This document shows, one piece after another, positions 12,842 to 20,731 of a stretch of DNA of 20,768 nt. The stretch is from a virus. The position numbers and the translations under genes were made by a program. The notes below the pieces were generated by a model. The model was given only the letters and a program-made list of their open reading frames with translations, was not told the DNA's origin and ran no database searches. Position 1 is the first letter of the stretch; the number at the start of each line of letters is the position of its first letter. The stretch covers positions 1 through 20,768 of the IMG/VR virus record IMGVR_UViG_3300031220_000021. One strand, given 5' to 3'.

Positions 12842-12988
12842 ATGACGAGTGTAACAATTACGGTAGAGCTAGACGCTGAGGTTTATTCTTGGCTTTTGGC
12901 GGCAGCTAACGGGTCTAAAATGACTGTTAGCGATTTTGCTAACGATATGTTGGAGAGCTATCTGGAGGACAATTATGGCGAGGTTTGA
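12842..12988 (+). CDS. Ribbon-helix-helix-like small protein
   Basis: ATG 12842 has a GAAGGG site upstream and gives 48 residues ending at TGA 12986-12988. The sequence MTSVTITVELDAEVYSWLLA then AANGSKMTVSDFANDMLESY has a short N-terminal strand (TITVEL) and two helices with a turn (SKMTVSDFAN), the outline of CopG/Arc-type ribbon-helix-helix DNA-binding proteins, which dimerise through that strand. It overlaps the annealing protein gene by 14 bp. A repressor role for the recombination operon is possible; the fold is only inferred. Confidence 0.55.
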   Translation: MTSVTITVELDAEVYSWLLAAANGSKMTVSDFANDMLESYLEDNYGEV

Positions 12989-13526
12989 TTTATCAAAGTA
13001 TGCGACGGTGGCCGAGCGTTTAGCTATGCTCGAGGCCGAGTACCCAGATTACCGGTTGGAGACTATCGACTATTCGACGGCTGACGATCGTGCTAAAGGG
13101 GTTTGGCGGGTAAAAACGTCTTTGTACTTGACTCGTGAGGATCAACTAGACGGGTTGGCTAAAGCTACAGGTCACGCGTTCGAGGTGGACTCGGCTAACG
13201 GGCCACAGGCCACTAGCGCGCTTGAGGTGTGCGAAACGTCCAGTGTGGGGCGTTGCCTTGCCCTGGCTTCGTCTAAGTGGTCGGGCAATAAAGACGACGC
13301 TAGTAAGTCGTTGGCGTCGCGTGAGGAAATGGAAAAGGTACAGCGTGGGGCACCGGCACCGGCAACCGTTGAGGCACCGGCAACCTTTTTTGACGACGTA
13401 GCTAAAGCTAAGACGGTTGACGAGCTCGAGGCGTTGTGGAACGTGGCAAAAGCGGCGGGTTACGCTGACTTTGTGCGTAAAGTAGTTACCGAGCGTAAGG
13501 CAATGATTACAGGGGGTAAAAAGTGA
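12975..13526 (+). CDS. Probable ssDNA-annealing recombinase (ERF/Sak-like)
   Basis: ATG 12975, 8 nt after GGAGG, gives 183 residues; an in-frame start at 12936 would overlap the upstream gene much further. The core has ARFDLSKYATVAERLAMLEA, the strand region GVWRVKTSLYLTREDQLDGL and the helix SALEVCETSSVGRCLALASS. That last motif (xETSxxGRxLA) is typical of ERF/Rad52-like single-strand annealing proteins in phages. The remaining C-terminal third (SREEMEKVQRGAPAPATVEA onward) is a Pro/Ala linker followed by a helix. It follows the exonuclease gene closely, and exonuclease plus annealing protein is the standard recombination pair. Family recognition rests on one motif, so confidence is moderate. 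Confidence 0.62.
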   Translation: MARFDLSKYATVAERLAMLEAEYPDYRLETIDYSTADDRAKGVWRVKTSLYLTREDQLDGLAKATGHAFEVDSANGPQATSALEVCETSSVGRCLALASSKWSGNKDDASKSLASREEMEKVQRGAPAPATVEAPATFFDDVAKAKTVDELEALWNVAKAAGYADFVRKVVTERKAMITGGKK

Positions 13527-14562: not shown

Positions 14563-14972
14563 TGAGTATCGGTAAGAGATCTAAAAAACAGGTTGAGCGT
14601 ATCCGGCAGGTTGTGTATAACCGTGACGGTGGTGTTTGTGTTGGCCAAGGGTTTGGGTTGGCTTGCTCGGGTGGGTTGACGGTGCAACACCGGGTTAGCC
14701 GCGGGATGGGTGGTAGTGCCCAATACGATACAGAGCCCGCGTGGCTGATTACTTTGTGTTGGGCGCATAACGTGGCGGAAACGTCTAACGCGTCGCTTAG
14801 AGAGGCGTACGTGGCTCGTGGGTGGGGTGTACCGAGGTGGGTTGTGGACTCGTGGGCGATTACCGAGGTGCCGGTGAGGTATGTTGACGGTTGGTACGTG
14901 CTTGTCGAGGGTGATAGGTTACCGGTTACCGAGAGAGAGGTTCGAGAGATTATGAGGGCAATATATGGGTGA
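14562..14972 (+). CDS. HNH-type nuclease domain protein
   Basis: GTG 14562 overlaps the preceding TAG and gives 136 residues. The zinc-type cysteines C26 (GGVC) and C35 (LACSGG) precede QHRVSRGMGG with H43, and C66 and H69 (LCWAHN) follow. The CxnC..H..CxxH layout is the HNH/McrA pattern, though the DH pair of canonical sites is replaced by QH43, so activity should be checked. The second half (REAYVARGWGVPRWVVDSWA onward) is mixed. It sits between the resolvase and the replication initiator, overlapping the latter by 8 bp. It could be an endonuclease in recombination or a phage-specific nicking enzyme. Confidence 0.7.
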   Translation: MSIGKRSKKQVERIRQVVYNRDGGVCVGQGFGLACSGGLTVQHRVSRGMGGSAQYDTEPAWLITLCWAHNVAETSNASLREAYVARGWGVPRWVVDSWAITEVPVRYVDGWYVLVEGDRLPVTEREVREIMRAIYG

Positions 14973-15723
14973 GGTATCCGAGGTCGACACCGACCTAAAG
15001 TTTTCGATAATCCCCGAGTGGCTTTTAGACGCTGATATAAGCCACGTCGCCGTCCGGGTGTACGCGATTATCGCCAGGTATGCAGACAACCAGACACTTA
15101 CCGCGTGGCCGTCGAGGGCGACAATAGCCGAGCGGGCAAAGTGCACCGTAAAGTCTGTGGATCGTGCCGTAGCTGAACTAATCCAGTTGGGAGCTCTCGG
15201 CAAAGAGTTACGCAACGACCACGAGGGACAAAAGTCCAGCCTTTACACTCTCAAACGGGTTAAGAGGGGGGCGACAAAAACGACCCTGGGGGGGCGACAA
15301 AAACGACATCGGGGGGGCGACAAAAACGACACACGAACTATAACCAATGAACTAGACCCAATTAACTATATAAAAGAGTTTGATAATTTTTGGCAGTCAT
15401 ACCCGAAAAAGGCTGATAAGCGGGTGGCAGAGAAGGCTTTTATCAAAGCTCGCAAGAGAGCAACTTTAGACACGATCCTTGCCGGGGTTGTTTGTTACCG
15501 GGATGACCCTAACCGTAAACCCGAGTTTACGAAAAACCCGGCGACGTGGCTTAACGCTGACGCTTGGCAGAATGAGGCTTTGGCAGCACCGGCACCTACG
15601 AACGATTGGGGTAAACCGTTGAGGCCGCCGGCTGAGTTGCCAGACGCAAGGGCGTGGGTTAAGGCTATGCACGCGATCGGTGAGCACTGGGAATGCAGGG
15701 CGGGTGAGTTCGGTTGTCGGTAA
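14965..15723 (+). CDS. Replication initiation protein (O-like) with embedded iterons
   Basis: ATG 14965 follows GAGGG and gives 252 residues. Residues 1-95 are a winged helix: IIPEWLLDADISHVAVRVYA, then WPSRATIAERAKCTVKSVDR, then AVAELIQLGALGKELRND. The DNA-binding part is followed by a basic linker (RGATKTTLGGRQKRHRGGDK at about 101-120) encoded by three iteron repeats. The C-terminal part (FDNFWQSYPKKADKRVAEKA, then KNPATWLNADAWQNEA) is the domain found at the end of many phage replisome organisers. N-terminal DNA-binding domain, origin in the linker and replisome-contacting C-terminus repeat the organisation of lambda O. No helicase or polymerase gene is present, so host factors must be recruited. 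Confidence 0.82.
   Translation: MGEVSEVDTDLKFSIIPEWLLDADISHVAVRVYAIIARYADNQTLTAWPSRATIAERAKCTVKSVDRAVAELIQLGALGKELRNDHEGQKSSLYTLKRVKRGATKTTLGGRQKRHRGGDKNDTRTITNELDPINYIKEFDNFWQSYPKKADKRVAEKAFIKARKRATLDTILAGVVCYRDDPNRKPEFTKNPATWLNADAWQNEALAAPAPTNDWGKPLRPPAELPDARAWVKAMHAIGEHWECRAGEFGCR
15266..15330 (+). repeat. Three 19-bp direct repeats (iterons), 23-bp period
   Basis: The identical core GGGGGGCGACAAAAACGAC occurs at 15266-15284, 15289-15307 and 15312-15330, separated by 4-nt spacers CCTG and ATCG. The spacing is exactly 23 bp. Each copy itself has a CGAC-AAAAA-CGAC pair. The array is inside the initiator gene, in its linker-encoding region. Confidence 0.95.
15266..15391 (+). other. Candidate replication origin (iterons plus AT-rich unwinding stretch)
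   Basis: The three iterons are followed immediately by an AT-rich stretch; from 15361 to 15390 only 4 of 30 bases are G or C. Iterons bound by the initiator, next to an easily melted AT-rich DNA segment, is the layout of iteron origins, and the lambda origin lies inside gene O in the same way. The function is inferred from this layout and from the initiator-like host gene. Confidence 0.7.
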
Positions 15724-17451: not shown

Positions 17452-17826
17452 ATGGCTAAGATTAGCCTTCACAACGTACAGGTAACCCGAGTGTTTTGGG
17501 ATGGTAAAGGGGCCGAGGTTTCTGAAAAGTACAAAGCTCGCGGTATGGACTTTACCGACCGTTACAGTTGCTTTTTTGACGAGCCCCACAACCTGCCCGA
17601 GGGTGCGCTTATTAGTGTCGAGGGTTTACTTGGGTTGAAGATTGACGAGTACACGAAAAAAGACGGCACACAAGCTCAGACGATTGCCCGGACAATCAAC
17701 AACCCGAAGGTAACCGCCAACGACTCACCCCCCTCGGACAAAACCGGGCCGGCCGCCATCCTCGAGCAATGGCCCACCGCAACTATTGGCCAGGGCAAAC
17801 CAGTAGACGAGAGTGCACCCTTCTAA
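17452..17826 (+). CDS. Single-stranded DNA-binding protein (SSB-like)
   Basis: ATG 17452 follows AGGGGGT and gives 124 residues. The strand pattern (MAKISLHNVQVTRVFWDGKG, then MDFTDRYSCFFDEPHNLPEG, then LISVEGLLGLKIDEYTKKDG) fits an OB-fold SSB with the family-like strand order. A linker follows (PKVTANDSPPSDKTGPAAIL) and the C-terminus ends in DESAPF, close to the acidic DDDIPF tip that recruits SSB-interacting host proteins. The gene directly follows a candidate promoter and precedes nuclease and repair genes. It would coat single strands during initiator-driven replication. It is shorter than typical host SSB, as phage SSBs often are. Confidence 0.75.
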   Translation: MAKISLHNVQVTRVFWDGKGAEVSEKYKARGMDFTDRYSCFFDEPHNLPEGALISVEGLLGLKIDEYTKKDGTQAQTIARTINNPKVTANDSPPSDKTGPAAILEQWPTATIGQGKPVDESAPF

Positions 17827-18577
17827 CGACGGTGACGACTTGCTAAACCTTGTCGATCGCCTAACACAACCCCACAAGTCTGGGGTAATAGTTTGGGACG
17901 ACGACGGCACCGAGCAAAAGGTTTACATTAGCCACGACCCCTTACTAAAACAGTTACGGCAACTTGTGCACTCAAGTCTTGGCTCCTCTGTCCAGGGGGC
18001 AGGGCTCGCCTCTGAGCGTAACGTTATCGACTCTGACGCGCTCGACCAATACGAGGCACTCAAACGGCAGATACGCCGGCTTTACGGTGAGGTGTCAGAC
18101 GCTAAACCGTTCCCCGAGCCCGAGAGCAACCTTAGACAGTGGTATATCGGCTTCAAGCGCCAGGTAGAGGCCCGTAAAGTCTCCGAAGACGTTGTGGCCG
18201 ACAAAACCCGCAAAATTGCCGGGATGGTGTACGCAATAGAGAACAAACTAAACCCGCCGACTATTTTAGAGATCACGGCAGCCTGTCCCCGTTGTGGCGC
18301 AACACACTCTAACGACGAGCAAGGGGTTTACCGTCGGGCTATCCTTATCGAGTCGAGGGTGGTGCAATACCGATCGTTAGATAACAGTAAAGCTCGCTGT
18401 ATTGCTTGCTTCGCTGTTTGGTTGCACGGCCGCGGTATGCGCCAGTTGCGTTACGAGATTGACCACGCCGAAGATACACAACACGCCGGCACCGAGGACG
18501 TAGAACAAATGTTCGATGATTATGGTACACTTGTAGAGCGCTCTACAAGTGTGCCCAAAAAGGGGACGAGGCTATAA
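17813..18577 (+). CDS. Zinc-ribbon phage protein of unknown function
   Basis: GTG 17813 overlaps the SSB end by 14 bp and gives 254 residues; an in-frame TTG at 17840 is a less likely alternative. The N-terminal region (LLNLVDRLTQPHKSGVIVWD) is followed by a long helical middle (DQYEALKRQIRRLYGEVSDA, then AENKL-type helices), and a zinc ribbon with C158 and C161 (CPRCGATH) and C196 and C199 (ARCIACFAVW). Proteins with this order are common and largely uncharacterised in actinophages. The 3' end carries a 32-nt near-perfect palindrome at 18524-18555. The stop overlaps the exonuclease ATG. A DNA- or RNA-binding role is inferred from the zinc ribbon only. Confidence 0.7.
   Translation: MHPSNDGDDLLNLVDRLTQPHKSGVIVWDDDGTEQKVYISHDPLLKQLRQLVHSSLGSSVQGAGLASERNVIDSDALDQYEALKRQIRRLYGEVSDAKPFPEPESNLRQWYIGFKRQVEARKVSEDVVADKTRKIAGMVYAIENKLNPPTILEITAACPRCGATHSNDEQGVYRRAILIESRVVQYRSLDNSKARCIACFAVWLHGRGMRQLRYEIDHAEDTQHAGTEDVEQMFDDYGTLVERSTSVPKKGTRL
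18524..18555 (+). repeat. 32-nt near-perfect palindrome in the zinc-ribbon gene
   Basis: GGTACACTTGTAGAGC (18524-18539) and GCTCTACAAGTGTGCC (18540-18555) are complementary at 15 of 16 positions. The central 26 nt (18527-18552) are a perfect inverted repeat with no loop. It ends 22 bp before the next ATG and is read as codons for YGTLVERSTSVP-type residues. It could be an operator or a strong RNA hairpin near the intergenic junction. Confidence 0.9.
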
Positions 18578-20076: not shown

Positions 20077-20120
20077 ACATATGGCACAACTGTACCCACG
20101 TAGGAAATATAGTTTAGATA

Positions 20121-20161
20121 CAATAAAGTAAATCTTGCGGTGCTTTAAACACACTTTATTG
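20121..20161. repeat. 9-bp inverted repeat with 23-nt loop
   Basis: CAATAAAGT (20121-20129) and ACTTTATTG (20153-20161) are perfectly complementary in an AT-rich stretch. The loop is 23 nt. Confidence 0.55.
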
Positions 20162-20166
20162 CTTTC

Positions 20167-20217
20167 ACTTATAAGTTCGAGTACTACTTATAAGGTTTTC
20201 TACTTTTATTTATAAGT
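20167..20217. repeat. Repeated ACTTATAAG motif, three copies
   Basis: ACTTATAAGT (20167-20176, itself a palindrome), ACTTATAAGG (20186-20195) and a degenerate ATTTATAAGT (20208-20217) repeat every 19 and 22 bp. The last copy sits inside a larger inverted repeat, ACTTTTATTTA/TAAGTAAAAGT (20202-20223). Confidence 0.6.
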
Positions 20218-20249
20218 AAAAGTGACTCCACAGTGAAAGTAGATACTCC

Positions 20250-20274
20250 AAAAGTGTACACAGGGTACACTTTT
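20250..20274. repeat. 10-bp perfect hairpin flanked by A4 and T4
   Basis: AAAAGTGTAC (20250-20259), loop ACAGG, GTACACTTTT (20265-20274). Outer pairs are A-T only, so it could be a bidirectional terminator of moderate strength or an operator. Confidence 0.6.
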
Positions 20275-20276
20275 CA

Positions 20277-20338
20277 AGTAACATTAGTCCCGAAAGTGTT
20301 ACTAACTTACATTCTTATTCACACTAATGTCACACTAA
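20277..20338. repeat. Further short repeats
   Basis: AGTAACA (20277-20283) pairs with TGTTACT (20297-20303). The 9-mer TCACACTAA is directly repeated at 20319-20327 and 20330-20338, period 11 bp, about one helical turn. Confidence 0.5.
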
Positions 20339-20425: not shown

Positions 20426-20731
20426 ATGACTCATAACTGGGACAGTAGCAAGAGAAGGCCAGACCCCGCCTACTGGCCCACCCTACGCCGGCAAATAATT
20501 GCCAGAGCGAAAGGGTTATGTGAACACGTTGACGGTTGCACATATACAGGGCAAGACGTAGACCACATTATCAACTTGGCTAAGGGTGGCACAGACGCCC
20601 CCGAAAACCTGCAACTCTTATGCCCTTGGCACCACAAACGCAAGACAAGCCAAGAAGCAACCGAAGCACGTAAGGCCCTCCCCACAATAACCGAGGCCAG
20701 ACGTAAACAAACTCACCCCGGACTCAGGTAG
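20426..20731 (+). CDS. Small HNH endonuclease
   Basis: ATG 20426 gives 101 residues, ending at TAG 20729-20731. The HNH signature is complete: C32 and C38 (LCEHVDGC), D46-H47 (GQDVDHIINLAKGG), N61 (PENLQLL), then C66 and H69/H70 (LLCPWHHKRKT). Free-standing HNH proteins of this size next to the terminase genes cooperate with terminase at cos sites in HK97-like and many Gram-positive phages. The position at the right edge of the window, after a gene-free region and before a G7/C7 hairpin, fits a packaging role, but terminase is not visible here. It lacks a Shine-Dalgarno and probably uses a leaderless mRNA. Confidence 0.88.
   Translation: MTHNWDSSKRRPDPAYWPTLRRQIIARAKGLCEHVDGCTYTGQDVDHIINLAKGGTDAPENLQLLCPWHHKRKTSQEATEARKALPTITEARRKQTHPGLR

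Follow-up and report, generated by a model that had tools for sequence, protein, structure and literature searches.

The segment at positions 15266 to 15390 is very probably the replication origin of this phage, embedded in the gene for its own initiator, with the winged helix of that protein binding three iterons beside a 14-mer unwinding element. In-gene iteron origins are already known; what is new here is a widely shared, highly constrained unwinding element. The repeats, their DNA-level nature, their position across the family, the constraint on the 14-mers, the instability of the adjoining stretch and the disorder of the encoded linker were all computed. The window, that is, the whole stretch of DNA analyzed, is an entire IMG/VR record, 20,768 bp long and listed as linear, and is probably a fragment of a larger genome. 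An actinobacterial host is indicated by a WhiB gene in the record (4.5e-18), by the Arthrobacter phages among the relatives and by L103, a Microbacteriaceae assembly that has a copy of the initiator gene at 52% identity. No noncoding RNA or tRNA was found when the record was scanned, and a search for plasmid relatives gave weak matches only.

The initiator gene (14965 to 15723, plus strand, as are all features of the origin) encodes a 252-residue protein made up of a winged helix, a disordered linker and a helical C-terminal domain. The protein has an HTH_36 match in Pfam (8.6e-12, above the Pfam cutoff), with a weak DnaD_N match besides, and of the PHROG profiles it fits PHROG 270 best ("replication initiation protein," 1.7e-39); the presence of both the HTH_36 domain and the PHROG 270 profile places it among the HTH_36/PHROG 270 phage initiators. 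In an AlphaFold2 model based on 52 sequences (mean pLDDT, 75.8), the winged helix (residues 17 to 97, encoded by 15013 to 15255) and the helical C-terminal domain (residues 137 to 198) were predicted with confidence, while residues 101 to 132 had pLDDT values below 50. The codons of these linker residues, 15265 to 15360, cover the iterons and the 14-mers. Among the top Foldseek matches to the winged helix were 5kbj, a RepA_N Rep-DNA complex, and 2v79, the N-terminal domain of DnaD (E of about 0.004 to 0.008), and 4pt7 and 4pql also matched weakly; 5kbj, 4pt7 and 4pql are plasmid Rep structures of the RepA_N type. The C-terminal domain had no structural match in Foldseek. Its coding part, delimited by alignments and the model, runs from 15379 to 15558 (F..FW to PATWLN, about residues 139 to 198). 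The N-terminal winged helix that the earlier note had read from the sequence is borne out by HTH_36 and the model, while the C terminus that it called replisome-organiser-like is a small helical domain; it matches nothing in Pfam, and domains of its kind occur in PHROG 270. The gene also contains a perfect 15-nt inverted repeat (15038 to 15052, TAAGCCACGTCGCCG, and 15539 to 15553, CGGCGACGTGGCTTA) that brackets the origin; it is kept in L025 and L026 (93 to 94% identical) and is missing from relatives at 62% identity.

The iterons are three exact 19-mers, GGGGGGCGACAAAAACGAC, at 15266 to 15284, 15289 to 15307 and 15312 to 15330, with a start-to-start distance of 23 bp. Both their coordinates and the low pLDDT of the residues they encode match the earlier description of three identical units in the linker-coding part of the gene. 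No further copy with up to three mismatches occurs in the record (shuffled sequences average 0.02). A period of 23 does not divide by 3, so each copy falls in a different reading frame (VKRGATKTTLGGRQKRHRGGDKNDT) and the encoded peptide cannot repeat; a peptide repeat was rejected on the out-of-frame periods and on the constraint at synonymous sites. When codons were shuffled synonymously, with the protein and its codon usage kept, none of 2,000 shuffles reached the repeat score of the initiator gene (z = 14.6). Two other genes of the window gave p values of about 0.005 in this test, with scores of 12.5 to 13.5 compared with 35.5 for the initiator. Since the test was therefore not perfectly clean, it was extended as a control to 102 open reading frames of at least 150 codons in eight phage records. 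The six highest scores (20 to 35.5) belonged to exactly the six initiators, and the next was 16.5. The annotated iterons of lambda O, used as a positive control, were recovered by the same test.

Relatives of the initiator were drawn from IMG/VR, GTDB genomes and cultured phages. Repeats were expected at the homologous position if the site is an origin, and they were found there, in the same linker and with a period of 21 to 24 bp, in relatives ranging from 93% to about 30% identity. The iteron sequence itself has diverged and its repeat character has been kept, as would be the case for sites evolving along with the protein that binds them. Among 61 nonredundant initiators less than 70% identical to one another, 30 passed a test for repeats of 18 to 25 bp (p of at most 0.01 against synonymous shuffles), all but one of them with a period of 21 to 24 bp. 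The other 31 failed this test, and some carry palindromic repeats of 15-bp period instead: in L070-L074, L081, L086, L090 and L089-L102, such repeats, with palindromic cores (TCCGTTGTCGGA, CCACTGTGG), replace the 21- to 24-bp iterons in the linker. Gsput1 has only a simple GGAAG run, and ThulaThula has no repeats. Since there are members without 21- to 24-bp repeats, the architecture is common but not universal. Similarity between iterons correlated with identity between winged helices (partial r of 0.40; Mantel p of 0.001) more strongly than with C-terminal identity (0.21), a correlation to which physical linkage alone could contribute. Together with the model and the Foldseek matches, it makes the winged helix the presumed reader of the iterons. 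An initiator-like gene in a Ruminococcaceae genome (L122, region 1006 to 1242) contains about five near-perfect in-frame 21-bp repeats, CGGCACTGACAAAAATGTCAC, a strong iteron candidate in another phylum.

A second tandem, missed by the earlier note, lies between the iterons and the A+T-rich stretch and overlaps the latter. Tandem Repeats Finder (TRF) and the alignment of relatives define two 14-mers and a partial third copy, GAACTATAACCAAT (15335 to 15348), GAACTAGACCCAAT (15349 to 15362) and TAACTATA (15363 to 15370). From the start of iteron 3 to that of the first copy is exactly 23 bp, one iteron period, and the same offset from the last iteron is found in L028, L041 and L131. In DNA alignments of relatives the 14-mers, the first of which is nearly invariant, are conserved better than either the iterons or the flanking coding sequence. 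Among relatives less than 75% identical, identical residues used the same codon in 93% of cases for TITNELDP and 95% for ELDPINYI, compared with about 60% for the iterons, 46% for the whole gene and 37% expected from codon usage. As judged from these alignments, it is the 14-mer element, and not the iterons, that is the most constrained DNA of the initiator gene.

A pattern covering all codon choices for RTITNEL[ED], run on all IMG/VR contigs, gave 26 matches. Twenty were initiators, all with the identical 22 bases GAACTATAACCAATGAACTAGA; the remaining six were chance matches in unrelated genes and used different codons. The 20 include near-duplicates and form about eight groups. In two of these groups the initiators are only 28 to 31% identical to the window protein and have different iterons. 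In one of the two (L128, with an initiator gene of about 66% A+T) the C-terminal domain shows no detectable similarity; in the other (L124) the linker is much longer. The pattern CCTTATAGAACCNTTA gave 82 matches, only part of which are initiators, because it also matches at many unrelated places. L017, a distant relative, carries the same T-to-G change in both 14-mers, silent in one and changing Leu to Arg in the other. In more divergent initiators the segment downstream of the iterons has a different sequence made up of the same words: TAGAA occurs there in 16 of 30, compared with 3.7 in synonymous shuffles, and TAACC, ATAGA, CTTAA and AGAAC are likewise enriched in that segment. There, TAGAA is read in both stop-free frames and GAACC in all three.

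The C-terminal domain has been swapped for one of the GSKFKDWDRAFRNWL type in L015 (3001 to 3674) and L235, both of which retain winged helix, iterons and 14-mers, a natural domain exchange downstream of the origin. Retention of these three parts together despite the swap suggests that reader and origin form one cassette. Initiator halves have clearly been exchanged hereabouts, in L015 and L235 as well as in L124 and L128, and distant phages share the 22-mer unchanged, so the 14-mer element might instead be a recombination joint for the exchange of phage modules and not a melting element. We consider this unlikely, since it leaves unexplained the repeat structure, the concerted change in L017, the fixed 23-bp distance, the low stability and the related motifs in divergent phages.

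An unwinding element agrees with the energetics of the segment. By nearest-neighbor energies, no 30-mer anywhere in the record is less stable than 15360 to 15389, and only the 30-mers starting at 15360 to 15362 have four or fewer G/C in 20,768 bp; the stretch at 15360 to 15390 is thus the presumed site of strand opening. The A+T-rich 30 bp with four G/C bases described earlier therefore stand as the least stable stretch, but they do not follow the repeats immediately, as had been stated: the 14-bp tandem (15335 to 15370) lies between and overlaps them. In most contigs that carry the exact 22-mer, the equivalent stretch ranks first or second among 40-mer regions for low stability, and so it does in Altadena, an Arthrobacter phage rich in G+C (z = 4.3). 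The stretch is not unusually unstable in Kepler or in the A+T-rich genomes of L128 and L137.

Among 40-mers of the record itself, the initiator stretch ranks second, after a region at 20174. That region falls in the record's other least stable segment, 20100 to 20300, which is intergenic and lies 5′ of an HNH gene (20426 to 20731). The iterons could be real and the main origin be located elsewhere, for example in this A+T-rich segment, with the in-gene site secondary, as in SPP1 with its two origins, oriL and oriR. There is no further iteron copy in the record, however, and 20100 to 20300 holds no comparable repeats, which makes this another improbable account. An inflection of GC skew at the site, proposed earlier as a check, did not appear in the window or in the complete relatives Altadena and Kepler. 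The curve of the window is flat from about 17 kb on, and the minimum in Altadena, at 42 kb, lies where gene direction changes. The four DnaA boxes (TTNTNCACA) in the window are at chance level, and none is in the origin segment.

The in-gene origin proposed here, which the earlier note had described as lambda-O style, is supported by the repeats in relatives, by the conserved adjacent element and by parallels with lambda O, SPP1 and RepA_N replicons. The iterons of lambda lie in gene O (PMC7466680). As in lambdoid and Stx phages, where iterons of about 19 bp occupy the middle of the initiator gene and a flanking A+T-rich tract opens, the iterons here are inside the initiator coding sequence with an A+T-rich tract beside them. 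Unlike lambda, with four to six iterons, the window has three, of another sequence; 14-mers in tandem, with extreme constraint on synonymous sites, make up its A+T-rich part; and no homologue of lambda P was found in the 20.8-kb record, which is probably a fragment. O-like PHROG profiles match with their N-terminal parts only and cover no more than about residues 20 to 130 of the initiator (1.3e-10). In SPP1, oriL lies in gene 38 and comprises direct repeats and an A+T-rich unwinding element (PMC6316719). The presence of such elements inside the gene for a replisome organiser, gp38, is shared with the window, whereas SPP1 also possesses another origin and encodes a helicase and a loader. Neither these enzymes nor a second origin with the same repeats was seen in the present record, again probably a fragment.

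In the RepA_N plasmid pSK41, the rep boxes are central in rep and the interdomain linker is encoded by the origin (PMC5703833). The same review describes plasmid pPR9, in which the N-terminal domain and origin region have been replaced by an HTH_36 (pfam13730) domain resembling a phage replication protein and whose mini-replicon is functional (PMC5703833). pPR9 is the closest experimental support for reading the present site as an in-gene origin. The candidate origin here is likewise central in the gene and encodes the interdomain linker (residues 101 to 132). RepA_N initiators bind the central rep boxes through a winged-helix N-terminal domain and have two folded domains with a likeness to DnaD; the window protein too has an N-terminal winged helix and two folded domains, of which only the first gave a modest match to DnaD. 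The window protein lacks the RepA_N Pfam domain (Pfam gives HTH_36 and weak DnaD_N), belongs to a phage and has a different C-terminal domain, and the review passages on RepA_N origins describe no 14-mer element of this kind. In RK2 oriV, the initiator binds one single strand of the 13-mer repeats in the unwinding element (PMC4081077). These tandem A+T-rich repeats, also beside iterons, differ from the 14-mers in sequence and in period (13 compared with 14) and belong to a plasmid oriV that is not described there as coding, but they may serve as a model for a possible role of the 14-mers.

The repeats could also be an operator through which the initiator or another regulator controls transcription of the early operon, the 14-mers being part of that control. 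The winged-helix profile of the initiator does match MarR-type regulators, and an oligomer bound inside the operon could block transcription. Nevertheless, the site is in the middle of a gene, 300 bp into the coding sequence, an outstandingly unstable A+T-rich element at a fixed distance is typical of origins, and the characterized look-alikes (lambda O, SPP1 gene 38 and RepA_N) are origins; we regard an operator as quite improbable. It is scarcely credible that the peptide RTITNELE was selected and the likeness of the DNA is a mere consequence: the exact 22-mer is always in the same reading frame, but the codon identity of 0.93 to 0.95 (0.37 expected) and the other synonymous-site data contradict it, 20 of 20 initiators share identical codons where chance matches differ, in divergent relatives the related motifs occur in two or three reading frames, and the segment is predicted to be disordered.

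The best reading is that the arrangement functions as lambda O, SPP1 gene 38 and the RepA_N plasmids do, and binding by the initiator, melting and origin function are attributed to it by analogy with these systems. The winged helix would bind the three iterons, spaced at 23 bp, and oligomerize on the DNA. The oligomer would destabilize the adjacent A+T-rich 14-mer element, one iteron period farther on, and the element would open. The exposed strand and the C-terminal domain, the latter the presumed contact for helicase loading or priming, would then bring in these activities, and replication enzymes of the host (or undetected ones of the phage) would start theta replication. Because the encoded part of the protein is an unstructured linker, this DNA is free to carry such sites. 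The absence of a polymerase, helicase or primase from the record carries little weight, since the record is probably a fragment; in the phage relative Bolt007 an annotated helicase loader adjoins the initiator gene, and Gsput1 has an annotated helicase.

What reads the 14-mers may depend neither on the iterons nor on which initiator is present. Somewhat short of an even chance, in our judgment, is the possibility that (GAACTATAACCAAT)n is a portable, sequence-specific code for unwinding and loading, a single-strand site whose reader would be a factor common to many phages or hosts. The 22-mer, with up to two mismatches, is absent from 400 genomes of the family to which the L103 host belongs and from 395 of its class (about 795 actinobacterial genomes, a few of them in both sets), so in that sample it does not copy a host site, and mimicry of host oriC by the 14-mer element was rejected. 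The TAG triplets were also considered as a DnaA-trio; their spacing is 11 to 17 bp, not 3. Searches of the open-licence literature turned up neither an account of these iterons or the 14-mer element nor an experiment on this initiator subfamily, and this melting element seems to be without an earlier description.

Replication origins of actinobacteriophages are hardly known. In a study of mycobacteriophage RepA, no repeats were found and the origin was only suggested to lie upstream of or within repA (PMC7157519). For HTH_36 initiators the present data give a testable rule for where to look: in the linker, for 21- to 24-bp repeats with a GAAC-containing A+T-rich tandem after them. By this rule, candidate origins can be placed in dozens of uncultured phages and also in culturable Arthrobacter phages. 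With an unwinding element common to initiators that are barely alike, the identity of its recognizer becomes a directly testable question, and the segment could yield small replicons for actinobacteria.

Two further repeats were observed elsewhere in the window. A near-perfect 16-nt inverted repeat without a spacer lies at 18524 to 18555, at the 3′ end of the gene at 17813 to 18577. Two 16-bp repeats, GGCACCGGCAACCGTT, 18 bp apart, lie at 13355 to 13388 within the gene at 12936 to 13526, which, judged by its position, may encode a recombination partner of the YqaJ exonuclease.
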